DNA from: a virus
IMG/VR virus record: IMGVR_UViG_3300045955_000216
Span: 1 to 58,723 of that record
Direction: 5' to 3' (one strand)
Length of the DNA: 58,723 bases
Shown: piece by piece, positions 2,379-28,710 of the stretch
How the letters are laid out: each line of letters begins with the position of its first letter
Position numbering within the stretch: the stretch's first letter is position 1
The notes under the pieces: generated by a model
Databases searched by the model: none
Seen by the model: only the letters and a program-made list of their open reading frames with translations
Told to the model about the DNA's origin: nothing
Program-made: the position numbers and the translations under genes

Positions 2379-2633
2379 ATGAAGGTCTGGGTCTACCGCG
2401 AGGCAAAGGACGGGATCTGGTGCGGGGAGTGCGTCCGCGAGGTCCCGGGCCCGGACGACCCGCCGGCCCTCGCCGAGCTGCGCGCGATCGAGCTCCCGCT
2501 CCGCCCGCGGAACCGGGTCCTCGACATCGCGCTCGGCCGGCTGGCCTGCGACGCCTGCGGCGGCAACCTCGAGGACCTCGAGGCGGAATTCGCCGCGCAC
2601 CCGAAGCTGGCGACCGTCAACCCCTACCTGTGA
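2379..2633 (+). CDS. Small zinc-ribbon-like protein, 84 aa
   Basis: Has CGEC near residue 16 and CDAC near residue 59, a four-cysteine arrangement suited to one zinc ion. The C-terminus is acidic. ATG 2379 follows GAAGAGGAGG. One of many small two-CxxC proteins in this phage; a regulatory or host-takeover role is only a guess. Confidence 0.65.
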   Translation: MKVWVYREAKDGIWCGECVREVPGPDDPPALAELRAIELPLRPRNRVLDIALGRLACDACGGNLEDLEAEFAAHPKLATVNPYL

Positions 2634-2645
2634 GGAGGGCGGACC

Positions 2646-3407
2646 ATGACGCGGCGTGAACGGCTCGAGGCCCGGATCGAGAAGCGGGCCGAGTGGGCGG
2701 ACAAGGCCCGCGCCCGCTCGGATGCCCGCTTCAAGACGGTTCGCACGATGCTCGACATGATGAACGGGAACCCGATCAAGGTGGGCCATCACTCCGAGCG
2801 GGGCCACCGGCGGGACATCGCCCGCGTCGACGCGAACATCTCGAAGGGCGTCGCCGAGGGGAAGCTCGCCGAGCTCCACACCAGCAAGGCCGGGAACCTC
2901 GAGGCCGCGCTCGAGCGGACGATCTTCTCGGACGACGCGAACGCGATCGAGGCCCTCGAGGCGAAGATCGCCGAGCTCGAGGCCGAGCGGACCCGGATGA
3001 AGGCGATCAACGCGGCCTACAAGAAGCGGGACGCCGGCAAGCTCGCCGAGTTGGGGCTCACGCTCGAGGCCCTCACGGCGAAGCTGGCGGCCGCCGGCCC
3101 TTATTGGGGCGACCGGCCGCACCTCCCCTATGAGCTCACGAACCTGGGCGCGCGGATCCGGGACGCGAAGGCCCGGATCGAGGAGATCCGGCGCCGGACG
3201 GCCCGGAACGAGCGCGCCGAGGCCGCGCCCGACGGCGTCCTGATCGAGGGCGCCGACTACGTCGCGGTCACGTTCGCGGAGAAACCCGAGCGCCGGATCC
3301 TCGAGGCCCTCAAAGCCGCGGGGTTCCACTGGTCCGGCGGCTCCTGGTGCGGATACCGTGCGAAGCTGCCGGCCGAGCTCGCGCCGGCGGAAGGAGAGAC
3401 GGCATGA
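2646..3407 (+). CDS. DUF3560-like coiled-coil protein, 253 aa
   Basis: The N-terminal half (about 1-65) has the Arg/Ala-rich helix and GHHSERGHRRDIARVD, characteristic as I recall of DUF3560 proteins of plasmids and phages. A long charged helix (about 75-140) follows. The C-terminal 60 residues (VLIEGADYVAVTF, AAGFHWSGGSWCG) form a small alpha/beta unit often seen with this family. GAGGAGG precedes ATG 2646. ATGA overlap with the next gene. Function of the family is not established. Confidence 0.75.
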   Translation: MTRRERLEARIEKRAEWADKARARSDARFKTVRTMLDMMNGNPIKVGHHSERGHRRDIARVDANISKGVAEGKLAELHTSKAGNLEAALERTIFSDDANAIEALEAKIAELEAERTRMKAINAAYKKRDAGKLAELGLTLEALTAKLAAAGPYWGDRPHLPYELTNLGARIRDAKARIEEIRRRTARNERAEAAPDGVLIEGADYVAVTFAEKPERRILEALKAAGFHWSGGSWCGYRAKLPAELAPAEGETA

Positions 3408-3865
3408 CGACCACCGCCGCCCCGATGGTCCGCACCTGGACCAACGTCGGGATCCTCCACTCTGAGACGCCGGAGCTGCGCGCCCGGCTCGAGGGGATGT
3501 TCGATCGGCTCCCCTGGAAGCGGTACACGCCGGGCGCCGAAGAGGCGATGATGCCGGCGCTCGGGATCCGCGCCGCGATCAACGAGCTCCGGATCCCGCG
3601 GGTCAGCCACTACGCGATCTCGAATGAGCTCGCGCCCTACGGGCTCTACGCCATCCGCGGGCACTTCCTCAACGGGCGCGTCGACGTGTACCTGGTCGAC
3701 GAGGGGAGCTCGCTGGTCGTCCTCGCGTCCGACCACTGGCCGGGCTGCACGACGCCGACCCCGATCGGCGAGTACGGCGCCACGGTCCCCTGCGGCGAGA
3801 CGGTGGCCGTGCCGGGCCGGAAGCCCTTCGCGCGCCTGTGCCCGCTCTGCCGGGGCGAGGGCTGA
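3404..3865 (+). CDS. Hypothetical protein with C-terminal CPLC motif, 153 aa
   Basis: ATG 3404 overlaps the upstream stop and follows AAGGAGAG. The central region (LAPYGLYAIRGHFLNGRVDV) is beta-rich; the C-terminus has CGETVAV and CPLCRGEG, a possible zinc site. Likely read in one message with its neighbours. Family not recognised. Confidence 0.65.
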   Translation: MTTTAAPMVRTWTNVGILHSETPELRARLEGMFDRLPWKRYTPGAEEAMMPALGIRAAINELRIPRVSHYAISNELAPYGLYAIRGHFLNGRVDVYLVDEGSSLVVLASDHWPGCTTPTPIGEYGATVPCGETVAVPGRKPFARLCPLCRGEG

Positions 3866-8300: not shown

Positions 8301-8617
8301 GCGTCGTCTCCTTGCCATCGCCAGACGGGCGACTCGTGTCCGTGGTTGCTTGGGTGCGCGGACCGTCGGGCCCCGACCTTCTGCCAGCCCTTGCCGGCGA
8401 AGATGGGGCCCCACGCCTTGCCGCTCGAGGGCTCGAGCCCGAGCTCGGCCGCCCGCACCCGGAGGTCGTCGATGTGGACGCTGCCCCGCTCGACCGACAG
8501 CCGGATCGCCTCGGCCCGCATCCGGAGGACGAAGGCCCGGTCCGCGCTCACGGCCTGATCCATGCCGATCCGCTTGCGCCGGAGGCCGGTCGGGAGGTCA
8601 AGCTGGATGGGCGTCAT
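8297..8617 (-). CDS. Conserved-type phage protein, 106 aa
   Basis: The motif AWGPIFAGKGWQKVG followed by SAHPSNHGH and WRW is familiar from small phage proteins of unknown function next to methyltransferase or resolvase genes. Helix-rich N-terminus (LRMRAEAIRLSVERGSVHID) suggests a winged-helix-like fold. ATGA overlaps at both ends. Confidence 0.6.
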   Translation of the reverse strand: MTPIQLDLPTGLRRKRIGMDQAVSADRAFVLRMRAEAIRLSVERGSVHIDDLRVRAAELGLEPSSGKAWGPIFAGKGWQKVGARRSAHPSNHGHESPVWRWQGDDA

Positions 8618-9635
8618 CGCGTCTCGAGGTAGGCCCGGAGGAAGACCGCCGCGACCTGCGGGACGATGGCGTTGCCGTAGGCGCGCAGGCGTCCCACACG
8701 GGCGGGAACCCCATGAGCCAGCGGACGAATGCCGGATTCAGCCGGGGGGACTCGCCGGAGCTTGCCGTCGGAGCAGGCGAGCCACTCGGCCCCCCCCCAC
8801 GCCGCGGACGCTGCCCCCCGAGCACCTGGTCCGTCAGACTCATCCCCGGGTGCGCCGTCGAGCCCGCGAGGTTCCGATTGCCCGCGCCCACCGCGTCCAT
8901 CCGGGTCGGCGTCGTCCAGCCGGCATAGAGCTGCGTCGCCATCCCGAGCTGGAGCCCCGCGCCGTTCCCGTTGTGCCACCGGGCCTTGAGGCGCGCCTGG
9001 CGCGCCTCGTGCGTCGCCGGCTCGGCGTGGACATTCATCGCCTGCGCGTCCGGCGTCGGCCAGCCCGCGGCGAGTAACGCAAAGTCCTGGAGATTCCGTC
9101 TCTCGCCCTGCGTGCGCTCCACCATCCCGCCCCGCTCGGCATTCGTCACCGCGGGACTCGGCCACCCAGTAGAGCCGCTGCCGGATGTGCGGTGCGCCGA
9201 CGCCCGCAGCGCACAGATCGGCGGCCCCGACGGCATATCCCAGGTCTTCCAGGTCAGCGCGTACTCCGGCGAGCCAGTGCCGGCCAGCGCGGCTCGCAAC
9301 CTGCTCGCCAGCGATGACTGGAGGGCGGCACTCGGCGATGAGCCGGAGAAAAGCGGGCCAGAGGTGCCTCTCGTCGAGAACGCCCGCAGCGCGGCCTGCG
9401 CTGGAGAAGGGTTGACACGGGCAGGACCCGGTCCAGATCGGCGCGTCATCCGGCCAACCGGCGAGGGCGAGCGCCTGCTCCCACCCGCCGAGCCCGGCGA
9501 AGAGGTGGACCCGCCGAGCCCCGGCAAGGTCGCCTGGTCGCACGTCGAGGATGCTCCGGCCGTCGACGTGGGCGTCGGGGTAGAGGGCCCGGAGCCAGGC
9601 GGCGGCGTAGGGGTCGTGGTCGTTGAAGTAGACAT
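8598..9635 (-). CDS. Second open frame of the methyltransferase gene, frame B (345 aa)
   Basis: This frame has no stop over the whole gene and contains runs recalled from database proteins linked to DNA methyltransferases: SLASRLRAALAGTGSPEY, LTWKTWDMPSGPPICALRAS, then GWPSPAV, GWPTPDA, GWTTPTR and LNPAFVRWLMGFPPVWDACA. GC3 favours this frame at about 8820-9110, favours frame A at 9450-9640, and is similar for both between. No clear ribosome-binding site was found for ATG 9635. It may be an overprinted gene, the target-recognition part of a frameshifted enzyme, or a shadow preserved by constraint on frame A. Confidence 0.45.
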   Translation of the reverse strand: MSTSTTTTPTPPPGSGPSTPTPTSTAGASSTCDQATLPGLGGSTSSPGSAGGSRRSPSPVGRMTRRSGPGPARVNPSPAQAALRAFSTRGTSGPLFSGSSPSAALQSSLASRLRAALAGTGSPEYALTWKTWDMPSGPPICALRASAHRTSGSGSTGWPSPAVTNAERGGMVERTQGERRNLQDFALLAAGWPTPDAQAMNVHAEPATHEARQARLKARWHNGNGAGLQLGMATQLYAGWTTPTRMDAVGAGNRNLAGSTAHPGMSLTDQVLGGQRPRRGGGPSGSPAPTASSGESPRLNPAFVRWLMGFPPVWDACAPTATPSSRRSRRSSSGPTSRRDDAHPA

Positions 9636-9642
9636 CCCTCAC
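8614..9642 (-). CDS. C5-cytosine DNA methyltransferase, frame A (342 aa)
   Basis: Transfers a methyl group from S-adenosylmethionine to cytosine C5 in DNA. Motif I is VHLFAGLGGWEQAL (about 45-58), motif IV GSCPCQPFS (about 72-80, catalytic Cys), then GEQVAS in place of the usual ENV, motif VIII IRQRLYWVAE and motif X RAYGNAIVPQ near the end. GTG start overlaps the upstream TGA. The target-recognition stretch in this frame (about 8820-9110) is Gly/Arg/Asp-rich with many A/T third positions, while the overlapping frame there has normal GC3 and looks like protein (see 8598-9635). Either the product shifts frame or two proteins are made. A role in protection from host restriction is likely. Confidence 0.8.
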   Translation of the reverse strand: MRDVYFNDHDPYAAAWLRALYPDAHVDGRSILDVRPGDLAGARRVHLFAGLGGWEQALALAGWPDDAPIWTGSCPCQPFSSAGRAAGVLDERHLWPAFLRLIAECRPPVIAGEQVASRAGRHWLAGVRADLEDLGYAVGAADLCAAGVGAPHIRQRLYWVAESRGDECRAGRDGGAHAGRETESPGLCVTRRGLADAGRAGDECPRRAGDARGAPGAPQGPVAQRERRGAPARDGDAALCRLDDADPDGRGGRGQSEPRGLDGAPGDESDGPGARGAASAAWGGAEWLACSDGKLRRVPPAESGIRPLAHGVPARVGRLRAYGNAIVPQVAAVFLRAYLETR

Positions 9643-9848
9643 GCGGTCCCCTCAAGGGCCGGCTCCGGCGCCGCGGTCCCCTTCTTCGCCGGCTTCGCGT
9701 AGACCGATACCAGGTCGGCCCGGTCGATGACGTCCGGCCGGAGGCCCTCGTCCCGGATGACGGCCGTACACTCCGCCACCACCCGGGCGAGGCCCTCCGG
9801 GGTGTAGGTGGAGCGGAAGAACAGCGCGCGGAGGGCCGGCTCGGGCAC
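9639..9848 (-). CDS. Hypothetical protein, 69 aa
   Basis: GTG 9848 overlaps the TAG of the nuclease gene. Sequence MPEPALRALFFRSTYTPEGL followed by a helical second half; C-terminus Ala/Pro-rich. The stop overlaps the methyltransferase GTG. No family recognised. Confidence 0.55.
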   Translation of the reverse strand: MPEPALRALFFRSTYTPEGLARVVAECTAVIRDEGLRPDVIDRADLVSVYAKPAKKGTAAPEPALEGTA

Positions 9849-10750
9849 TACGCCTTCCCCACCAACTCGAGCTGCTTGCCGTTCGCGGCCTGGGCCTGGG
9901 CGAGACTCGTCTCGAGGACCGGGGTCAGGTCCCGCTCGACCGCCGGCGCCGGGGGCGCCTCCGTCTTCGGTGGGAGGATCCCCCACCAACAGGCGTGCTT
10001 GTAGACGCACTTGTTACAATTCATCGGGCTCGGGCGCCGCGGGAAGAGGCCGGCGTTGATCTGCGCGTCGATCGCCTCGACGTCCCGGATCCGCGCCTCA
10101 ACCAGGGGCGCCGTGATCTGGAGCGCGAGCGGCTCCTGGGCCTCTGGCTTCGGCTCCTTCGCTCGGCCCGTGCGGACGACGTCGAACAGGAAGAGGGGCC
10201 AGCGCCCGACCTTGTCGAAGAACATCTTCCCGTAGAGGGGCGGCTGGTCCTGATAGTGCAGCTCGTCGCCGGCCATCTTGTCGGTCGGGAACTTGGCATC
10301 CCGAATCCGCATCTGATCGTCGACGACGTCGAGCTTCCCGGTCAGCCGGAGGCCCGACGGGAGCGTGGTCTCGACCTTCTCCTCGACCATGAGCGGCTGG
10401 ATCCCGGGCGCGACCTTCTCAAGGTAGACCCGGAGGCCCGCCTCCCCGTCCTTCCGGACCTTCGCCTCGCTCTGATCGTCGAAGAGGACGATCTCCTCGC
10501 CCCCCATCGGGGAGAAGGCGAGCTTCACCTCCTCATGGAAGACCTCGACGCACTCGTCGACCGGGAGATCCTGGCCCGTCTCGATCTTCTGGCGGAAGTT
10601 GTGCTCGAGCGCCTTGTGCTGCGCCCGGCCCTTGATCTGCCAGACGTTCGCCAACTTCACCTTCTTGAGGTACTGGTACTCGAAAGCCCGCGGGCAGCGT
10701 TCGTAGCTACTGACCTGCGACGGGGAGCGGGACCAGCGGCGTGTCGTCAT
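9848..10750 (-). CDS. Cas4/RecB-like PD-(D/E)XK nuclease with Fe-S cluster motif, 300 aa
   Basis: N-terminal SPSQVSSYERCPRAFEYQYL is the typical helix with the first cluster cysteine. GKLDVVDDQMRIRDAKF (about 135-150) holds the catalytic Asp and Lys of the D-x(n)-(D/E)xK site. CNKCVYKHACWW (about 245-256) supplies the other three cysteines. Such nucleases resect DNA 5'-3' and in phages pair with annealing proteins; here the RecT-like gene lies immediately upstream with a four-base overlap. The unusual AK for the more common YK is noted. Confidence 0.8.
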   Translation of the reverse strand: MTTRRWSRSPSQVSSYERCPRAFEYQYLKKVKLANVWQIKGRAQHKALEHNFRQKIETGQDLPVDECVEVFHEEVKLAFSPMGGEEIVLFDDQSEAKVRKDGEAGLRVYLEKVAPGIQPLMVEEKVETTLPSGLRLTGKLDVVDDQMRIRDAKFPTDKMAGDELHYQDQPPLYGKMFFDKVGRWPLFLFDVVRTGRAKEPKPEAQEPLALQITAPLVEARIRDVEAIDAQINAGLFPRRPSPMNCNKCVYKHACWWGILPPKTEAPPAPAVERDLTPVLETSLAQAQAANGKQLELVGKA

Positions 10751-11640
10751 GCCGCCACCCCCACCGGACCGGCCTTCCCCGCCTTGTGGTCGGCCAGGAG
10801 CCGGTCAAACCCCGCCTTGAACGTGGCGAAGGTCTCGGCCTTCTGCTTGTCGAGTGCCGTCTTGTTGCGGACGCCCGCCCCGAAGTACCCCTCGAGCATC
10901 TTCCCGTCGAAGCGCCCGCCCGCGAGCTCGTTAACCATGTTGATCGCGGCCATCGCCTCGTAGGACGGAGGCGGCTCGTCGGCGACCGAGGCCGGCTCGG
11001 GCGTCGGCCCGTGGCCGTTCTGGACGACCTCGGCCTCGACGATCCGGGCCGCCGCCGCCTCGGGCGTCGTCACCACCGGCCGCGACGGCGGGGCCGGATC
11101 CTCCTCGAGCTCCTGGGGCGTGTAGACCGGCCCGCCGAAGACGTCGGGGCAGTACCACTTGACCCCGTTCGACATGGACCGGGCGAAGTACATGTTCCGG
11201 GGAAAGGCCCCATAGTTGTAGCTGTTGAGGCCGGCCCGCTTCGCGTCCGCCTCCGTGAAGGCCGAGACCCCGAGCTCGTGGCGCTTGCCCTCGCGGCGCT
11301 CAATGAAGGTCAGCACGCAGCCGGTGTCATCAAGCCGCGTGACCTCGTAGTCGTACCGCCCGCTCCGCTTCACCGTCGCGGCCATGAGGTTCGCGTGCAT
11401 CCCCAGGCGGGCCGGCCGCCCGTTCTTCGACTCCGCGAGGTAGATGCCCGTCATCGCCGCGAAGGGCGGGAAGCCGAGCTCGCGGCCGGCCATGATCTTG
11501 ACGAGGGCCTGGGCCTCCTGGCGCGAGTCGTGGAAGAACCCACTGGCCGCGAACACCTTCGCGATCGCGAGGGTCCCCTCAAAGGTGGCGGGCCGCAGGA
11601 CCGGGTCCGCCGGGATGGTCTCGAGACTGTCTGTCGTCAT
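10747..11640 (-). CDS. RecT-like single-strand annealing protein (candidate), 297 aa
   Basis: The N-terminal 180 residues contain FPPFAAMTGIYL, RLGMHANLMAATVKRSGRYD, FTEADAKRAGL, FPRNMYFARSMSNGVKWYCP and DVFGGPVYTPQEL, a signature I associate with phage annealing proteins of the RecT type. A Pro/Ala linker and a helical tail follow. AAGGAGG lies seven bases before ATG 11640. Next to the Cas4-like nuclease it forms a recombination pair. The family name is from memory; the role is inferred from context. Confidence 0.6.
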   Translation of the reverse strand: MTTDSLETIPADPVLRPATFEGTLAIAKVFAASGFFHDSRQEAQALVKIMAGRELGFPPFAAMTGIYLAESKNGRPARLGMHANLMAATVKRSGRYDYEVTRLDDTGCVLTFIERREGKRHELGVSAFTEADAKRAGLNSYNYGAFPRNMYFARSMSNGVKWYCPDVFGGPVYTPQELEEDPAPPSRPVVTTPEAAAARIVEAEVVQNGHGPTPEPASVADEPPPSYEAMAAINMVNELAGGRFDGKMLEGYFGAGVRNKTALDKQKAETFATFKAGFDRLLADHKAGKAGPVGVAA

Positions 11641-11672
11641 CACGTTGCCTCCTTCGCTCGTTAGTGGGCGGC

Positions 11673-11714
11673 GCCTGACAGGGGATGTCACTCTTCTCGC
11701 GGGCCCCGTCAGGC
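11673..11714. promoter_or_regulatory. Inverted repeat upstream of the RecT-like gene
   Basis: GCCTGACAGGGG (11673-11684) pairs with CCCCGTCAGGC (11704-11714), leaving one bulged base and a 19-base loop. It lies between the small membrane protein gene and the RecT-like start. It has no U-tract on the minus strand, so an RNA processing or attenuator role is more likely than a simple terminator. Confidence 0.5.
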
Positions 11715-20859: not shown

Positions 20860-23800
20860 TCATCGGCCGAGGCGCTCCCGGACCCCGTCGAGGAGGTCCC
20901 CGCGGGCGTCCCGCTGGGCCCGATGGACGATCGACTGGATCTCGCGCTTCTGCTCGTCGCGATCGAGCGCCCGGTAGGCCGGATCCTCGAGAAGGCCCAG
21001 GAGGTCCTCGCGGGCCTCGGCACCCCAGGTCCGGTGGTAGAGCCGGCGCTCCCGCTCGAGGAGCTCCACCTTCTCGCGGTCGACCGTGAGGCTCCGGGGC
21101 GGTGCGGCCGGGACGTAGCCGACCCGGGCGAGCTCCCGCTCGACGGCCTTGTCCGGCCGGGGGGCGTTCCGCCGGATCGGCGAGACCATCCGCTCGAGCG
21201 CCGTCTCGCCGCTCGTGAGGGCGCCGCCGAGAGCCCCGCGCTTCGCCGGGAGCTGGTTCCGGAGGCCGGGGAGCTGGGCCTGCATGGCCGCCACCGGCCC
21301 CTCGATCTCGCGCTCGGTGTCGTCCAGGCCGCGGGCGATCGACCCGAGGAGCCCGCCGGCCGGGATCATCCCGCGCGCCTGGCCCTCGAGCCACGACTCC
21401 CCGTACCGGAGCGGATCCGCGAGCATGTTGGAGAGCCCGAGGAGCCCGCCCAGGAAGGTCTTGTTCGTGATGTTCTGGGCCACGGCCCGGAGCATCGCGT
21501 CGGCCTTCTGTGCCGCCTTCTGCTCCTCACCGCCCCGGGCGAGCTCGACGATGTCGGCCGCCATCCCGAGGAGCCCGCCCACCGGCTCGAGCCGGTTGTA
21601 GGCGAAGGACCCGACGCCCGGCACCGTGACGCTGTAGGGCTGCCAGCCGGCCTCGCGCTTGGTGCGGAGCGTGTCCCGGTCCTCGCCGCCGCCGCCGCCG
21701 GTGACGTACCCCGCGGCCGCCAGGGCACCGGCGGCCAGCATGACCATCGACCCGAGGAACGGCCGCGCCAGGTCCTCGGCGAGCGCGCGCGGGACGCCCC
21801 CGAGCTCCCGCTGGCCCTGGGTGTACTCGCCCCGCCGGGCCCGCATCACGACCGGCACGAACCCGAGCGGCGTGCGCTCAAGCGTGGCCTTCATGATGTT
21901 CGCCGGCGTCCGGACAAACGGGATGACGTACCGGAGGGCCGGAATGGTCTCGCGGCCCCAGAGGACCCACTGGCCCATCTTCCCGAGCTTCTGCTGGAAC
22001 GTCCGGTAGTCCTGGGCGCCCTGGGCCCGGAGGAGCATCCCCGGCGTCGGGTCGGCGATCAGGGCCGACATCCGCCGCGCGAGGGCCTCGCCCTGGTGGC
22101 CCTCTTGGAGCGCGATCCGGAGCGCGCCGGCGTGAATCTCCGCGTCCCAGACCATCGCCTTGAAGGCCGCGTCCTCCGCGGAGAGCGCCCGGAGCGGGGC
22201 CCGGATGACGCGCCCCGCGCGGCCGCCGATCGCCGGCGGGCGCGCCTCGACGCGCCCCAGGTCGGCGCGCGTCTCGAGCTGCCAGGCCGCGACGGCCTTC
22301 CCGAGGGCCCGGCCGCTCGTGAGCGCCGACAGCATCCCCGCGACCTCGGCCATCCCCTCGCGGGCGAAGACCTCCCGCTGCCGGCCGGTGAGCTTCGCGA
22401 GGACCGCGTCGATCCCGCCGGCCAGCGTCCGCTCCGCGGTGTTCGACGCCATGAAGAGGGTGTTCCCGATCATGTTGGCCGCGTGCGATTGCGGGCCCGA
22501 GAGGATCGAGGACAACCAGGCCTCATAGAGCTTGTCGGACCAGCGGCGCTCCTGGGCCTTCCGGAGGAACGACGAGAGGCCGCGCGTGTCGCCGTCCGGC
22601 AGCGCGGCCGCGAGCTCGAGGACCTCGAGCGTCCGGGCCCGGTTCCGCGCGCCCGTGGCCTCGCCGCGCTCGCCCGTGACGGCGCCCTCCCCGCCGAAGA
22701 GCTCGAGGGCCGCCTGGAGCGCCTTCCCCTCAAGGGGCTTTCCGGCCTTGGCGCTCTTCGCCAGGATCCGGTGCGCGGCGAGCGCGCGCGCGATCTCCGT
22801 CGTCGCCCCTTCGACCTCGCCCTGGAGCGCGATGTGCGCGGCGGCCGCGCGCGCGAAGCGGTCGACCAGGGCGTCGGGGATCGGCTGGCCCTCGTGCTGG
22901 AGGGTCCGGTACTCCGCCTTGATCCCCGCGAGCCGCTCCGCCGAGGCCAGGAGAATGTTCCGCGCCTGCGTGATCTGCTCGGCGTTGAGCGTCCCGCCGA
23001 GGACCCGCCGGCGGATCCTGCCCTCGTCGAGGCCCGCCTCGAGGGACAGCCGCTCGATCTCCTCGAGCGTCATCGTGCCGCGGCGCCGCTCCATCATATG
23101 CCCGTGGTGCTGCTGGTGGAGCTGCGAGTACAGGTACTTCACGTCGACCGCCGTATCGAGCCGGTCGAGGTTCGTGCCGGTGTCGGTGTCCACGCCGGCC
23201 CGGCCGGTGGCCCGCACGACGAGGTCCGTGTCCGACGCGGTCGCGGTGGGCGCGGCGGCGCCGACGCTGCGCGCCGGCGTGGCCGCGGCGCGCGCGAGCC
23301 ACTTGGCGTGGGCGCCGCCGAAGAGGGCCTCCGATTTCGCGATGTCGGCCGCGCGCTCGGCGCGCTCGGCGGGCGTCAGGGTCTCCACCTTGCGGCCACG
23401 CCACTTCTCGTAGATTTTCCAGCCGGCGTCCTGCACGGCCCCGACGTCCTGGCCGACGAGCTGGAGCTCGGCGATCAAGCCCGTCGGGAGCTCGATGGCG
23501 ACGTGGATCGCGCGGTAGCCGCCGATCTTCGGCTTCTCGAGAAAGTTTTCGATGTCGACGACCGGAAACTCCCGGCCGACGGCCTCGAGGACCCGCGCGG
23601 CGTCCCCGGGGGCGTCGATCCAGACCCGGCCGCCTAGGTAGTCGACCCAGGCATCGCCCGGACGGGCCTGGAGCTTCTCGGTAATCCGGTGCTTGGCGTC
23701 GCTCTTGACCCTGGGCGGGTAGCGGTCCGGGAACGTCAGCCCCGGGGTATCGACGGCCAGCCGCCGGAGGCGCTGCTCGTACTGTGGCCGATCGTCCTCG

Positions 23801-26800
23801 GCGCGGGCCAGGAGGGTCGGGACGTCCGCCGTGTCCTGGTACGCCTCATAGGTCGGCTCGGACGGCAGCGGCGCGGTGTTCGGGCGCTCCGGCAAGGTGC
23901 GGAGGCGTGTGCGCCCTGGGGCGCGGACGACCTCGGCCGGGTCGAAATTTGCTATACTTGGGTCGATGGAGCCCACCGTGGTCAAGGTCTGGGAGGTCGG
24001 CCGCGAGGACGGGGGCGGATTTATCCGCACCGTCGAGCTCTCGAGCGGCTCGGTTCGCGGCGAGGTCTGGTCCGCCGCGGCCAAAGCCTGGATTCCGGCG
24101 CCCGGCATGGACGCGGGCCGGATCTTCCGCGCCTCTCGGCCCTCCGCCGAAGAGCTCGCCGCCGCCGGCATCCCCGCCTGACCCTCGAGGCTCTGCCCGA
24201 CCCGTATATCGCCCTGGGCCGCCATCCGCTCGCGGAGTCGCTCCTGGAGCGTGGCTTCATCGGCGGCGCCCCGCGCGCCTTCCCGGGACACCCCGCGCGA
24301 CGCGACGTACTCGCCGGTCGCCGGCTTCCCGAACCGGACCGCGTACACGCTGACGTGGCTGCCCGTCTGGAGGTCCTTGTCGGCGGCCTGGACGAGGAAG
24401 TTTAGCGTCCCGCCGACCGTCCCCGCGTTCCGGCCGGCGAGACCGGAACCCCGCCCGCTGCCCACGCGGAAGACGAGGTCCTCGCCCGGTTCCGCCTTCG
24501 GGTCGCCGAGGTTCTCGACGAACGTGCGATAGGCCCCCTGGGGTCGGAGCTCCTCGAAGAGGTTGATTCCGCGGAGCGCCTGGTCGAGCGGGATCGTCGA
24601 GAGGCGCCGCTCCGTGTACGCGCCGCCCTCGGGGAAGTAGTACCAGCCGCCCAGCTTGAAGCCGACCGGCGGCCGCGGATCCTCTCCGCCCCGCGGTTCC
24701 GCCGCCCCGACCCCGCCGAGGTCCGGCTCCCCCGCCGTGCGCGCCGCGAGGTCCGCCGGCGCCCCGAAGAGGTCGCCCTGGCCGGCGGCCCGCGTGTCGG
24801 CCTCGTCGCGCGCCTCGAAGTTGAAGAGGTTCCGCTCGCTCCGCTCCGACTCAAGGGGCGGCTTCGTCGACCCCTTCCGGATCGGGCCCGCCGACATCTC
24901 GCGCCGCTCGGTGCCGGGCATGACGTACTGGTCGCCGGCCTCGGTCTTCTCGACACGCGGCGCGGCCGCCCCTACGCCCTCGAGCTCCGGCTCCCCGGCG
25001 ACGCGGGCGGCGAGGTCGGCAGGCGGAACCGCCGTGGCCGCTCGTCCCCGAGGGACGTCAGGTGCGGCATCGCCCGCCGTAGCTCCCGCAGGACGACCGC
25101 CTGGTCCGCCTCGGAGAGCTTGGGGTAGCGCCTTGCGGAGGGCGCTGTACGTTTGTTCCCGGACCGCATGGCGTCCCTCCCCGGCCGCGAGGCGCGCGGC
25201 CCCCTGGTTGAGCACGTCGGCCACCGGGCCTTGGACGTGCTTCAAGCGATCGAAGAGCTCGAGCAGGACCGCGGCCTCCTGGCTGACGCCCTGGCTCCGG
25301 GCGACGTCAATCACGTTGCCCTCGGCCTGGAGCCGCTGCGCCGCGCGTGACTTGCTGACGGTCGAGAAGAGGCGCTTGTCCTGCGAGAGCCGATCGCGAA
25401 GGTCGGCGACCAGCTTGGCCTTCTCGACGACGGCCGCCTCTTGGCGCGTGTCAGTCCCGAAGAGCGTCTCCTCGGTGACCGCGCGGGTCGGCGCCGAGGC
25501 CGCCATCCCCGCGAGCTCGGCGACGTCCTTGTCCCGGAGCGGCCGGCGCTTCTCGAGGCGCTCGAGGGCCTGGACGAGCTTGAGCTGCGCGTCTGGATCC
25601 TGGACCCGCTCCCCGATCAGGACCGCCCGCGGCGTGGAGAGCTTCCCCGTCTGGACGCGCGCGAAGACGGGCGCCGTCAGGTTCCCGAGCGCGAGGCCTT
25701 CGCGGACCACCGACTCGCGCATCGGGACGCCCTGGGTGCGGAGCGTCTCGGCCGTAAGCCCGGTGTCGCGGAAGAACTTCGCCGCGTCGAAGGCGGTGCC
25801 CCGGCCCTCGGCGATGTTCATAAGCGCGCCGACCGCGCGCGCCTGCTCGGCCGTCTCGGCCTCGACCTCGAGGACGGCGATCGACGCCGGCGCGGACGGA
25901 TCCCCCGCGGCCCCGAGCTCGCGCGCCTTGTTGACGCGGTTGTGGCCGTTGAGGACCTTGAGGCGCTGGTCCGCGGGATCCCGCCAGACGGCGACGACGC
26001 CGGCGAGGTTGGGATCCCACCGCCGGACGCCGGTCAGGCTGCCGGTGCTGCCGCTCTTCTCCCGGTTGGAGACCTTGAACTGGAAGCGGTCTGGCTCGAG
26101 GTCCAGCTCGGCGAGCGGCACCTCGCGGACGCGGGTCGGCGCGGCCTCGGGGCCGGCCTCCACCCGGAGCTCGGCCTCGGTGGGGCCGATCATCCGCGCG
26201 GTGCCGGCCAGCCGGAGGCCCTCGCGGACCAGCGGACTGTCGGGATCCACGCCAAAGGCGCGGAGCTGTTGCGGGCCGAGGCCGTACTCCCGGAAGAACG
26301 CGGCCGCGTCCTGGGCGGAGGTCCCCGTCGTGGACGGGCGGTCCACCGCGAAGCCCTGCTCGGCGCTCGCCTTGGGTCGGCGGTCGCGCACGAGGTTGTC
26401 GACGACCCCGAGCGTCCGGGCGGTCTCGGCATTCGGGGCCTGGAGGAACCGGACCCGGATCTGCGGGACCCCCTGGGACTTCGCCAGGTTGAGCCGGTTG
26501 TGACCGTTGATGACGTACACCTGCCCGTCGGCCGGATCCCGCCAGACCAGGAGCCCGTTCCGGTCCCGCGCCGGGTCGTACCGCTGGCGGGGGTCGAACG
26601 TCCCGCTGGCGCCGCTCTCCGTCTCGAGGCCCGCCAGCTTGAACTGGAACCGGCCGGGGTCGGCCTTGACCGATCCGGTCGGGAGGAGCGCCTGGCCGGG
26701 CTCGAGCGGGATCTCCCGCGACGGGATCTCGGAAATCCCCTCCTGGGACGCCGGGGCGGGCCCAGGCGCGCGATCGGCCGGAGGGGCCGGTATCTCCCCC

Positions 26801-28710
26801 TCGGCGGCCTCGGCCTGGCGCGCCCGGATCGTCTCGAGGATCCGGGGCCCGCTGGCGGGTGGGGGCGTGACCTCCACCTGGCCGCCCTCGGGTGTCACGG
26901 GGGCGACCGCCGCGGCGGCCGTCTCGGCCTCCCCGGGGCGGGTCAGGACCGTTTGGACCTCGCGGCCAGCGTCGTCCTGGACCTGGACCTGGCTGGTTGG
27001 GTCGCCCGGGGTCGGCTTGGCGTCGACGCCGTACCCGAGGAGCCGCCCCGCCCGGCCAGCCCGGTACTCCTCGGCGACCCAGCGGTCGAGCATCCGGCCG
27101 GACAGCCCGGGCGGCGCCATCGCCTCGATGGCCGGCCGGCTGTAGTAGAGGGCGTTCCCGTTCGGGAGCTGGGCGACGCGGATCCGCTCGCCGCGCCGCT
27201 GGGCGCCCGGGCGAAAGTCGGCGTCCCACTCGAGCGGGACCTCGACCGCGGGCTTGTCGCCACGGGCCAGGGCGTTGAGCTGGGCCCGGACCGCCCGCGG
27301 GCTTTCCGGGAGCGTGCGGCGCTCGGCCTCGGCCTGGGCCGCTGCCTCGCGGGGGGCCGCCTGGGGCCCGCGGATGACGGCCCCACCGCCCGCGCCGAGA
27401 ATCCCGCCGATCGAGGCCGCCTCGAGGATCTCGCTCGACGGCGCCTGTTGGCCGGCCGCGGTCGCGCCGATGCCGGTCTGCATTCCTTCTTCGATCGCTT
27501 CGCCGGCGCCGCTCCGGAGGCCCCGCCGGACGAGCCTGCCCGTCCCGAGGATCGGGCTGAATCGTTGGGTGATGGTCAGGAGGAGCGCGTTCCCCACCGC
27601 CGCGCGGTTGCCGGCCGCGACCGCTTGCGTCGCGTCGCCGGTCTCGGCGAGGACGCGACTATACGTCTCGCCCGCGCCGGAGAGCGCCTGGCCGAGGCCT
27701 TCCACCGCGACGCCGGTGAGGCGCGCCAGGCGCGGCGCGATCTGCATGATCCGCGCGCTGACCGCGGCGGCGCCCATACCCGGGACCAGGAAGGCGGCCA
27801 GCGAGCCGATCCCCTGGAAGAGCTTGTCCGCATAGGTGGGATCCTTGACCCCGAGCGTGTCGGCGACCTCCGTCGCGGCCAGGCGGAAGTCCCGGAAGAG
27901 GTCCTCGGGGATCCCGACCTGACGCGCGAGAAGCTCGGCGCCGCCGGCCACACTCGCCACCGCCCCCGCGACGCCGGTCCCGACGCCCCGGCCGATCCGC
28001 TCGGCCGCGTTCATCGGTGGAGCCGGGCCTGGCTCCGGCCGGTCCGCCGCGACCCGCCGCGCGATGTCGGGGCTTGACTCCACGCCGGGGCCCACCTCCA
28101 CGCTCCCGCCCTGCCCGGACATCACGAGGGCCCGGGCGGCATCCGGCATGATCGCGCCCTGGGCGGCCGCGAGGCGGCGCCCCGTCGGGGTCCGGCCCGC
28201 CGCGTCCGGCTGGTCCAGGCCCGGGGTAACCTGGATCGGCCGCTCGCCGGCCAGGGGCGTCGTCACCGGGACGTCCGTGTTGCGCGCGACGGGCGGCGGG
28301 ACGGGCTGGCCGGTGCGCGTGTCCTTCCCGTCGACGATGAGGTTCGGATGGCCCGCCAGCTTGAACGTGCTCGGCCAGTGCCCCGTCGCGTCGGGGGCGG
28401 CGCCCGCGCGGTAGGCGGCGCGGTAGTCGTACTGGTGCGTGGGATCATCCGGATCCGGATGGAGGCCCTGCGCCTGGGCGTGCTTCGCGTACCAGGTGCG
28501 GAAGCCGGGGTCGTCGGGGCCGTCCTCGACGACCGTCCCGCCGGCGGAGACGGTGCCTTCCGCGCGGGCCCGCGGCGGCCGCTCGAGGCCGAAGAGTCGA
28601 TCGAGGTCGTCGACGCTCGGGCCCGACGCCGCGGCTGACGCGGCCGGGGTGCCGCGGGCGGCCGGCCCCGGCCCCCCGAAGAGCCGGTCCAGGTCTTCGA
28701 CCGTCGGCAC
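20860..28710 (-). CDS. Giant polyvalent ejection protein with ParB-like and RelA/SpoT-like domains, 2616 aa
   Basis: N-terminus carries two copies of VxDLDRLFG. Residues 60-120 hold a podoviral motif (YDYRAAYRAG, GHWPSTFK). About 230-470 is Gly/Ala-rich and membrane-like. Two DdrB-type ParB-superfamily domains follow (about 690-850 and 870-1010; VINGHNRLN and VLNGHNRVN). Near 1410 lies a small domain (VFRVGSGRG, SVYAVRFG) that could be ADP-ribosyltransferase-like. About 1610-1815 looks like a RelA/SpoT synthetase (VDYLGGRVWID, KPKIGGYRAIHVAI, AELQLV). The last 700 residues contain the polyvalent-protein pattern YEAWLSSILSGPQSHAANMI and hydrophobic segments. Phage polyvalent proteins enter the cell with DNA and act on the host. 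Acts between tail and coiled-coil ejection genes; the nested plus-strand gene at 23966 lies in a linker. Confidence 0.8.
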   Translation of the reverse strand: MPTVEDLDRLFGGPGPAARGTPAASAAASGPSVDDLDRLFGLERPPRARAEGTVSAGGTVVEDGPDDPGFRTWYAKHAQAQGLHPDPDDPTHQYDYRAAYRAGAAPDATGHWPSTFKLAGHPNLIVDGKDTRTGQPVPPPVARNTDVPVTTPLAGERPIQVTPGLDQPDAAGRTPTGRRLAAAQGAIMPDAARALVMSGQGGSVEVGPGVESSPDIARRVAADRPEPGPAPPMNAAERIGRGVGTGVAGAVASVAGGAELLARQVGIPEDLFRDFRLAATEVADTLGVKDPTYADKLFQGIGSLAAFLVPGMGAAAVSARIMQIAPRLARLTGVAVEGLGQALSGAGETYSRVLAETGDATQAVAAGNRAAVGNALLLTITQRFSPILGTGRLVRRGLRSGAGEAIEEGMQTGIGATAAGQQAPSSEILEAASIGGILGAGGGAVIRGPQAAPREAAAQAEAERRTLPESPRAVRAQLNALARGDKPAVEVPLEWDADFRPGAQRRGERIRVAQLPNGNALYYSRPAIEAMAPPGLSGRMLDRWVAEEYRAGRAGRLLGYGVDAKPTPGDPTSQVQVQDDAGREVQTVLTRPGEAETAAAAVAPVTPEGGQVEVTPPPASGPRILETIRARQAEAAEGEIPAPPADRAPGPAPASQEGISEIPSREIPLEPGQALLPTGSVKADPGRFQFKLAGLETESGASGTFDPRQRYDPARDRNGLLVWRDPADGQVYVINGHNRLNLAKSQGVPQIRVRFLQAPNAETARTLGVVDNLVRDRRPKASAEQGFAVDRPSTTGTSAQDAAAFFREYGLGPQQLRAFGVDPDSPLVREGLRLAGTARMIGPTEAELRVEAGPEAAPTRVREVPLAELDLEPDRFQFKVSNREKSGSTGSLTGVRRWDPNLAGVVAVWRDPADQRLKVLNGHNRVNKARELGAAGDPSAPASIAVLEVEAETAEQARAVGALMNIAEGRGTAFDAAKFFRDTGLTAETLRTQGVPMRESVVREGLALGNLTAPVFARVQTGKLSTPRAVLIGERVQDPDAQLKLVQALERLEKRRPLRDKDVAELAGMAASAPTRAVTEETLFGTDTRQEAAVVEKAKLVADLRDRLSQDKRLFSTVSKSRAAQRLQAEGNVIDVARSQGVSQEAAVLLELFDRLKHVQGPVADVLNQGAARLAAGEGRHAVREQTYSALRKALPQALRGGPGGRPAGATAGDAAPDVPRGRAATAVPPADLAARVAGEPELEGVGAAAPRVEKTEAGDQYVMPGTERREMSAGPIRKGSTKPPLESERSERNLFNFEARDEADTRAAGQGDLFGAPADLAARTAGEPDLGGVGAAEPRGGEDPRPPVGFKLGGWYYFPEGGAYTERRLSTIPLDQALRGINLFEELRPQGAYRTFVENLGDPKAEPGEDLVFRVGSGRGSGLAGRNAGTVGGTLNFLVQAADKDLQTGSHVSVYAVRFGKPATGEYVASRGVSREGARGAADEATLQERLRERMAAQGDIRVGQSLEGQAGMPAAASSSAEGREARKIRPASMPGAGIQALAAADQTSPRTEPLESSTVRINPPPSSRPTSQTLTTVGSIDPSIANFDPAEVVRAPGRTRLRTLPERPNTAPLPSEPTYEAYQDTADVPTLLARAEDDRPQYEQRLRRLAVDTPGLTFPDRYPPRVKSDAKHRITEKLQARPGDAWVDYLGGRVWIDAPGDAARVLEAVGREFPVVDIENFLEKPKIGGYRAIHVAIELPTGLIAELQLVGQDVGAVQDAGWKIYEKWRGRKVETLTPAERAERAADIAKSEALFGGAHAKWLARAAATPARSVGAAAPTATASDTDLVVRATGRAGVDTDTGTNLDRLDTAVDVKYLYSQLHQQHHGHMMERRRGTMTLEEIERLSLEAGLDEGRIRRRVLGGTLNAEQITQARNILLASAERLAGIKAEYRTLQHEGQPIPDALVDRFARAAAAHIALQGEVEGATTEIARALAAHRILAKSAKAGKPLEGKALQAALELFGGEGAVTGERGEATGARNRARTLEVLELAAALPDGDTRGLSSFLRKAQERRWSDKLYEAWLSSILSGPQSHAANMIGNTLFMASNTAERTLAGGIDAVLAKLTGRQREVFAREGMAEVAGMLSALTSGRALGKAVAAWQLETRADLGRVEARPPAIGGRAGRVIRAPLRALSAEDAAFKAMVWDAEIHAGALRIALQEGHQGEALARRMSALIADPTPGMLLRAQGAQDYRTFQQKLGKMGQWVLWGRETIPALRYVIPFVRTPANIMKATLERTPLGFVPVVMRARRGEYTQGQRELGGVPRALAEDLARPFLGSMVMLAAGALAAAGYVTGGGGGEDRDTLRTKREAGWQPYSVTVPGVGSFAYNRLEPVGGLLGMAADIVELARGGEEQKAAQKADAMLRAVAQNITNKTFLGGLLGLSNMLADPLRYGESWLEGQARGMIPAGGLLGSIARGLDDTEREIEGPVAAMQAQLPGLRNQLPAKRGALGGALTSGETALERMVSPIRRNAPRPDKAVERELARVGYVPAAPPRSLTVDREKVELLERERRLYHRTWGAEAREDLLGLLEDPAYRALDRDEQKREIQSIVHRAQRDARGDLLDGVRERLGR
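23950..23966 (+). promoter_or_regulatory. Extended -10 promoter of a leaderless transcript
   Basis: TGCTATACT (23950-23958) is followed after seven bases by ATG 23966, so RNA would begin at or next to the start codon. No good -35 is seen. It shares TGCTATA with P1 and P2. It lies antisense in the polyvalent gene. Confidence 0.5.
23966..24181 (+). CDS. Nested antisense small protein, 71 aa
   Basis: Encodes MEPTVVKVWEVGREDGGGFI, then RTVELSSGSVRGEVWSAAAK, AWIPAP and a C-terminal SAEELAAAG. It has normal amino-acid composition and mostly G/C third positions. The opposite strand here (polyvalent residues about 1510-1582) is low-complexity Pro/Ser/Ala with more A/T thirds. There is no ribosome-binding site but a -10 seven bases before ATG. 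It may be a small gene inserted into a linker, possibly an immunity-type partner of the adjoining domains; that is speculation. An accidental frame is the alternative. Confidence 0.5.
   Translation: MEPTVVKVWEVGREDGGGFIRTVELSSGSVRGEVWSAAAKAWIPAPGMDAGRIFRASRPSAEELAAAGIPA

Follow-up and report, generated by a model that had tools for sequence, protein, structure and literature searches.

Can a single stretch of phage DNA encode both halves of one enzyme? The question is raised by a C5-cytosine DNA methyltransferase gene on the minus strand of virus record IMGVR_UViG_3300045955_000216, the whole of which (58,723 nt, 72% GC) was analysed and is referred to here as the window. An original prediction, made from the sequence alone, had described this gene (73% GC) as open in two frames, and both are in place: frame A, of 342 amino acids, and frame B, which lies at +1 of A and runs for 345 codons without a stop (Table 1). 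Both frames are open and both are under selection, in complementary regions, and motif IX of the enzyme is located in B and not in A. Since B carries the part that A is missing, the two products probably join into one enzyme; we put the probability that the locus encodes a two-polypeptide C5-cytosine DNA methyltransferase, with both chains made from one stretch of DNA, at about 0.7. Residues written as "A n" refer to codon n of frame A.

Two open frames in the window and in its relatives

The identification of frame A as a C5 methyltransferase is borne out by matches to PF00145 (A68-163, E 4.9e-14) and, over nearly its full length, to PHROG 363 (E 2.6e-69). The PCQ motif is invariant and lies at A74-76 in the window; a motif of the ENV/EQV type and motif VIII are conserved as well. 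In the AlphaFold2 model of A, the catalytic part and the C-terminal elements are confident, and A178-278 falls below a predicted local distance difference test (pLDDT) score of 50; Foldseek searches with this model return M.HhaI and other C5 methyltransferases. For frame B, the match is to PHROG 1008 (E 8e-26), in which the members, too, bear the label DNA methyltransferase; sequence searches with B in Pfam, NCBIfam and the PDB gave no useful match. Its AlphaFold2 model is confident only at residues 100-150, where a helix and a β-hairpin are predicted.

GC content at third codon positions (GC3) in the window follows the predicted pattern, A-like at both ends and B-like between 8833 and 9147. 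The A/B values are 0.97/0.72 at A codons 1-30, 0.51-0.66/0.85-0.97 at A codons 166-270 (8833-9147) and 0.91/0.68 at A codons 321-343. Judged from the window alone, the openness of B is weak evidence and unremarkable: when the synonymous A codons of the window gene are shuffled, B is left open with P = 0.07, and the window holds 65 stop-free frames of at least 300 codons. It is only through homologues that B is seen to be open far beyond chance.

Viral contigs were fetched with four queries (the B and A sequences and a profile of each), and the first survey comprised 205 viral loci (177 unique), the window included; tblastn gave 54 phage records for B and 437 for A. B lies at +1 of A in all 205 viral loci, with a median overlap of 312 codons. 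The A-profile search alone supplied 80 loci (L126-L205), the best-scoring relatives of the window A family; fetched through A only, these were not chosen for carrying B, and 80/80 carry it. Genomes with a flank GC of 0.38-0.49 have the same A/B layout, with the GC of the gene raised to 0.49-0.63. Annotated phages with this layout include the laboratory phages N15, K1G, Bas74 and Bas75 (the last two from BASEL) as well as eiAU, BcepC6B, PMG1, Vibrio phage Fayden, Klebsiella phage SBP, Krischvirus Delraymugoa (42% GC) and Paenibacillus phage Genki (44% GC). Both frames are annotated in the K1G and Genki records, and the annotated gene of PMG1 is frame B. The +1 overlap is likewise present in 79 of 80 bacterial-genome loci fetched with B, which come from Proteobacteria, a Leptospiraceae genome, Verrucomicrobia, Planctomycetes and others. 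The search for stops in homologous B frames that the original prediction had proposed therefore found B uninterrupted in essentially all of them (205/205 viral, 79/80 bacterial), and hundreds of other phages share the dual-frame arrangement, as judged by sequence.

In several loci (L028, L034, L038, L039, L058 and L165), A is split into two open reading frames (ORFs) with the B ORF present; these may be decayed genes or further split forms. One contig (L052) carries two frame-A genes of the window family, at 320-1362 and 2415-3426, about 1 kb apart.

Selection on both frames and the place of motif IX

Over 174 loci, shuffling of the synonymous codons of A within each gene leads to an expectation of 535 stops in B, and shuffling of those of B to 1339 stops in A. 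No stop was observed in these loci, which is partly built into the count, as this took in only the open stretch that both frames share. In ten lower-GC genes, the longest +1 run was rarely or never reached by the shuffles (P 0 to 0.0045 per gene). A chance open frame in GC-rich DNA was ruled out by the shuffles together with the homologues at 38-49% flank GC.

Synonymous divergence and ratios were analysed in 60 independent pairs. The 4-fold synonymous divergence of A starts at about 0.45-0.6 (A1-62), lies mostly at 0.1-0.3 over A80-160 and mostly under 0.25 in A164-275, drops to 0.03-0.04 at A294-314 and reaches 0.4-0.7 past A320. Divergence by codon position is 0.185/0.164/0.518 at the N-terminus, marking A as the main frame, and 0.380/0.251/0.227 in the middle, marking B as the main frame, where the first position of A, which is the wobble position of B, is the fastest. 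An OLGenie-like count along six segments gave ratios of 0.25, 0.21, 0.40, 0.91, 0.49 and 0.32 for A (dNN/dSN) and of 1.13, 0.80, 0.64, 0.42, 0.39 and 0.80 for B (dNN/dNS), the control being neighbouring genes with a fake +1 frame, at 0.70. Given this control, only the middle (0.42) and motif IX (0.39) segments of B are clearly lower by ratio; at A94-163, the evidence for selection on B is the drop in synonymous change, not the ratio. Before motif X of A, glycine is encoded by GGA in 119/119 loci (versus 0.30 overall) and valine by GTG in 112/119 (versus 0.24 overall), a codon choice that keeps Trp-Asp in B.

A is thus selected at motifs I-VIII and X and neutral between them, and B is selected over about A85-320. 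The original prediction had made its case depend on constraint in B beyond what A demands, and such constraint is present, the synonymous sites of A being strongly constrained under B. The locus behaves as an overlapping gene: the second frame is open across divergent homologues beyond the forcing of A, and B is under purifying selection. The synonymous profile, together with the GGA codon that never varies, ruled out B as a forced shadow of A.

B is most conserved at one end, which reads LNPxxxRWLMGFPxxW. Single-frame relatives such as L234 have the corresponding LNAKFVEYMMGLPIGW in the frame of A, immediately before motif X. This L234 sequence is placed by phmmer on motifs IX-X of M.HhaI (ARVMGYPDSY...GNSVV), PF00145 covers the L234 protein up to profile position 317/324, and hhalign pairs the B motif with LNAKFVEYMMGLPIGW over 20 columns (E 7e-4, probability 26%). 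Aligned with the single-frame proteins, window-type A proteins keep motif X and have no motif IX, so the ten motifs do not stand in one chain; as the B motif aligns with the missing element, motif IX is located in frame B, which had gone unnoticed in the original prediction. Because the middle of A is neutral and predicted to be disordered, A is also left without an evident recognition domain. In the model, this disordered middle fits the role of a spacer and is no proof of the role of B.

Relatives with other layouts bear on the same point. In some actinophage-type loci, A stops just behind motif VIII, and PTP repeats, motif IX and motif X follow in the +1 ORF; this split layout was found in L246, L253, L256, L259 and L270, each examined whole, and genes 54 and 53 of Gordonia phage Upyo (L215) look like the same arrangement. 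The split layout ties B to the methyltransferase, as by its motif content B is there the C-terminal half of the enzyme. In L234, L238 and L245, motifs IX and X are in frame A, yet a +1 ORF with PTP repeats persists. Such varied layouts would be the expected outcome of frame changes around the recognition region and between motifs IX and X. In L217 (2008-2951), PTP repeats are seen in the A frame and in the +1 frame of one gene, looking as if the repeat array had entered either frame at different times. Some B-like ORFs have their own, longer N-terminus (MSWLFSQALVEEYL... at L286:2364-3101; MSWHCSQGEVEAF... at L218:1849-2544) and overlap another branch of C5 methyltransferase cores.

A proposed enzyme of two chains, and the alternatives

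We propose that the product of A (alpha) would be the catalytic chain and would carry motifs I-VIII and motif X with a disordered spacer between them. The product of B (beta), translated at +1, would have its own start inside A or close to where A begins, and would comprise the helix and β-hairpin, the GWPTP-repeat region and motif IX. The two chains would assemble into the active enzyme, alpha giving cofactor binding, catalysis and the C-terminal helix, and beta most likely giving the motif IX scaffold and, probably, target recognition. The enzyme would presumably modify phage DNA, for example against host restriction.

Open B frames usually start around A22-36, and ATG, GTG or TTG occurs at A84-91 in 132 of the 177 unique loci, with AAAGGAG upstream in many. 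In the window, the candidate starts of B are ATG 9449 (A65), TTG at A39 and ATG 9635. One uniform start at A86-90 was considered and rejected, the window having no such codon and the Shine-Dalgarno test there being weak. The GTG start of A overlaps the stop of an upstream ORF, 9639-10010 (GTGA at 9639-9642, minus strand), with GAGGGG upstream, and the first ATG of B sits 7 nt past this GTG; this arrangement suggests translational coupling.

Several observations weigh against the two-chain enzyme. The AlphaFold2 model of B is mostly of low confidence, and a structure search with it gave no PDB match. The match to motif IX of M.HhaI, a second-domain match in phmmer, is not significant alone. The start of B is not uniform, as the A86-90 start of most relatives is absent from the window and the Shine-Dalgarno test is weak, and no selection was detected in the first 60-80 codons of B, which may be a forced shadow of A. 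Since A of the L234 type has motif IX in frame and the +1 ORF persists there, motif IX alone cannot explain B. Finally, translation of B is something that we infer.

The retention of the +1 ORF in L234, L238 and L245, whose A already has motifs IX and X, speaks for B as a genuine overlapping protein with a separate function, such as a regulator or a counter-restriction protein, with A alone being the methyltransferase; so do the independent selection on B and the lack of a structural match for it. We regard this as improbable, because A of the window family has no motif IX and B carries it, because the +1 ORF of the split relatives is the C-terminal half of a methyltransferase, and because the neutral, disordered middle of A leaves no evident recognition domain in A. 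Less credible still is programmed frameshifting that joins A (motifs I-VIII), B (recognition region and motif IX) and again A (motif X) in one chain, although selection runs in exactly this A-B-A order, as does GC3 in the window. Two shifts would be required; the open middle of A would be unneeded, yet it is kept open where several stops per locus are expected, and equally unneeded would be the open upstream part of B, which usually opens near A22-36. Motif IX of B and motif X of A moreover share nucleotides, so that a shifted chain would presumably be without the linker of the single-frame relatives.

We give almost no credence to B being an untranslated shadow of A in GC-rich DNA. Its openness is not significant in the window alone, and codon inspection indicates that conserved residues of A largely determine parts of the N-terminal half of B; against this, B is open in low-GC genomes (P 0.0045 or less per gene), the synonymous constraint is limited to the conserved stretch of B, and in the middle the wobble position of B is the fastest, with GGA retained in 119/119 loci. 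The three explanations offered by the original prediction thus fared differently. Overprinting, with two translated frames, is supported by the absence of stops from B in homologues and by the constraint on synonymous sites of A. Frameshifting is disfavoured, since A stays open across its own neutral middle and B is already open far ahead of the point at which it would be needed. Compensated indels fit as history, given that the recognition region, motif IX and motif X appear in differing frame combinations among relatives.

Table 1. Features of the methyltransferase locus in window coordinates.
Feature	Position	Strand	Basis or remark
Frame A coding sequence (alpha)	8614-9642	-	C5-cytosine methyltransferase, 342 aa, GTG start; PF00145, PHROG 363, Foldseek to M.HhaI
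Frame B ORF (beta)	8598-9635	-	+1 of A, 345 aa counted from the first ATG; PHROG 1008
A residues 1-163, catalytic part, motifs I-VIII	9154-9642	-	PF00145 at A68-163; pLDDT mostly >80 up to A160
A residues 178-278, spacer	8809-9111	-	Neutral in A, predicted disordered (pLDDT <50); dNN/dSN 0.91 over A164-285
A residues 317-341, motif X (LRAYGNAIVPQVA) and C-terminal helix	8620-8694	-	Alignment with single-frame relatives; helix 327-340
Stretch of B under selection (A ~85-320)	8683-9390	-	Drop in 4-fold synonymous divergence of A
Candidate internal B start, ATG at A65	9447-9449	-	Alternative: ATG 9635
B residues 100-150, helix and β-hairpin (ALQSSLASRL...YALTWKTWDM...ICALRASA)	9186-9338	-	AlphaFold2 pLDDT ~86-91 in most blocks
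B residues 156-290, GWPSP/GWPTP/GWTTP repeats, proposed target-recognition region	8766-9170	-	B wobble fastest; dNN/dNS 0.42; recognition role putative
B residues 297-317, motif IX (RLNPAFVRWLMGFPPVWDACA)	8685-8747	-	Lowest synonymous divergence of A falls here

Upstream of A, two ORFs (9848-11691, minus strand) resemble by eye a Cas4/RecB-type nuclease (CxxCxxxxxC end) and a RecT-like recombinase. Elsewhere in the window, an ORF of 2616 aa (20860-28710, minus strand) has PHROG matches to portal-annotated, internal virion protein and virion RNA polymerase families, as in a giant multi-domain virion protein.

Known two-chain enzymes and the meaning of the overlap

Two-polypeptide C5 methyltransferases are already known, and both protein families are present in databases. 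The small chain of M.EcoHK31I is reported to come from an alternative frame inside the large-chain gene, and in the window family the proposed small chain likewise has its frame within the DNA of its partner. PMC3404938, citing Lee, Kam and Shaw (1995), describes M.EcoHK31I (YGGCCR), a characterised enzyme, as having motifs I-VIII and X on its large chain and motif IX alone on its small chain, and assigns the predicted recognition domain to the large chain. The window, with motifs I-VIII and X in A and motif IX in B, is alike in motif layout; it may differ in its recognition region, as the corresponding part of A is neutral and predicted disordered and it is B that is selected there. M.EcoHK31I is part of a restriction-modification system, whereas the window enzyme is in a phage. 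M.AquI (CYCGRG) is likewise a C5 methyltransferase in two chains, divided after motif VIII (PMC3404938), a division that resembles the actinophage-type split relatives. Unlike M.AquI, which has motif X on the small chain, the window has motif X in A, and its two frames share almost the full length of the gene. Reassembly is possible for C5 methyltransferases that are cut between motif VIII and the recognition domain (PMC3404938, PMC5944983).

The motif order in A (9400-9642, minus strand; A4-80) itself appears rearranged, with a motif II/III-like VYFNDHDPYAAAWLRALYP...RSILDV before motif I (HLFAGLGGW) and PCQP directly after motif I. The natural circular permutations of C5 methyltransferases surveyed in PMC5944983 are located in the variable region, so the apparent order in A would be a different rearrangement.

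Both frames are listed as separate 'methyltransferases' in PHROGs and in a number of GenBank records. The 'C-specific methylase' and 'Mte8-like protein' of K1G, annotated in overlapping frames, belong to the same families as PHROG 363 and PHROG 1008, and two overlapping methyltransferases are annotated in Paenibacillus phage Genki. The PHROG families and the K1G pair are listed as independent families or genes, without a subunit relation, selection evidence or a motif IX assignment. A literature search for Mte8, overlapping phage methyltransferase genes and alternative-frame subunits found no description of the arrangement. As far as this search shows, it is new that phage methyltransferase genes of the window family code in both frames for most of their length; equally new are the map of complementary selection, the placing of motif IX in B and the relatives with swapped frames.

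To our knowledge, it is rare in double-stranded DNA phages for two selected frames to overlap on the same strand over about 300 codons. This overlap has been retained in phages of E. coli, Klebsiella, Pseudomonas, Xanthomonas, Vibrio, a cyanobacterium and Paenibacillus, and also in the genomes of bacteria from several phyla. A wider and more doubtful suggestion, which we offer tentatively, is that a very large group of phage C5 methyltransferases may be obligate alpha/beta enzymes with a repeat-built specificity subunit overprinted on the catalytic gene, a modular system on both frames in which PTP repeats, motif IX and motif X, gained, lost or moved between the frames, would diversify recognition and leave catalysis intact. 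If the two frames do encode subunits of one enzyme, many 'solitary' phage methyltransferases would seem dead or misleading in specificity when just one frame is cloned, and many records of a 'hypothetical protein' or 'DNA methyltransferase' would be the other half of an enzyme. Annotation pipelines would then systematically lose one of two real genes.
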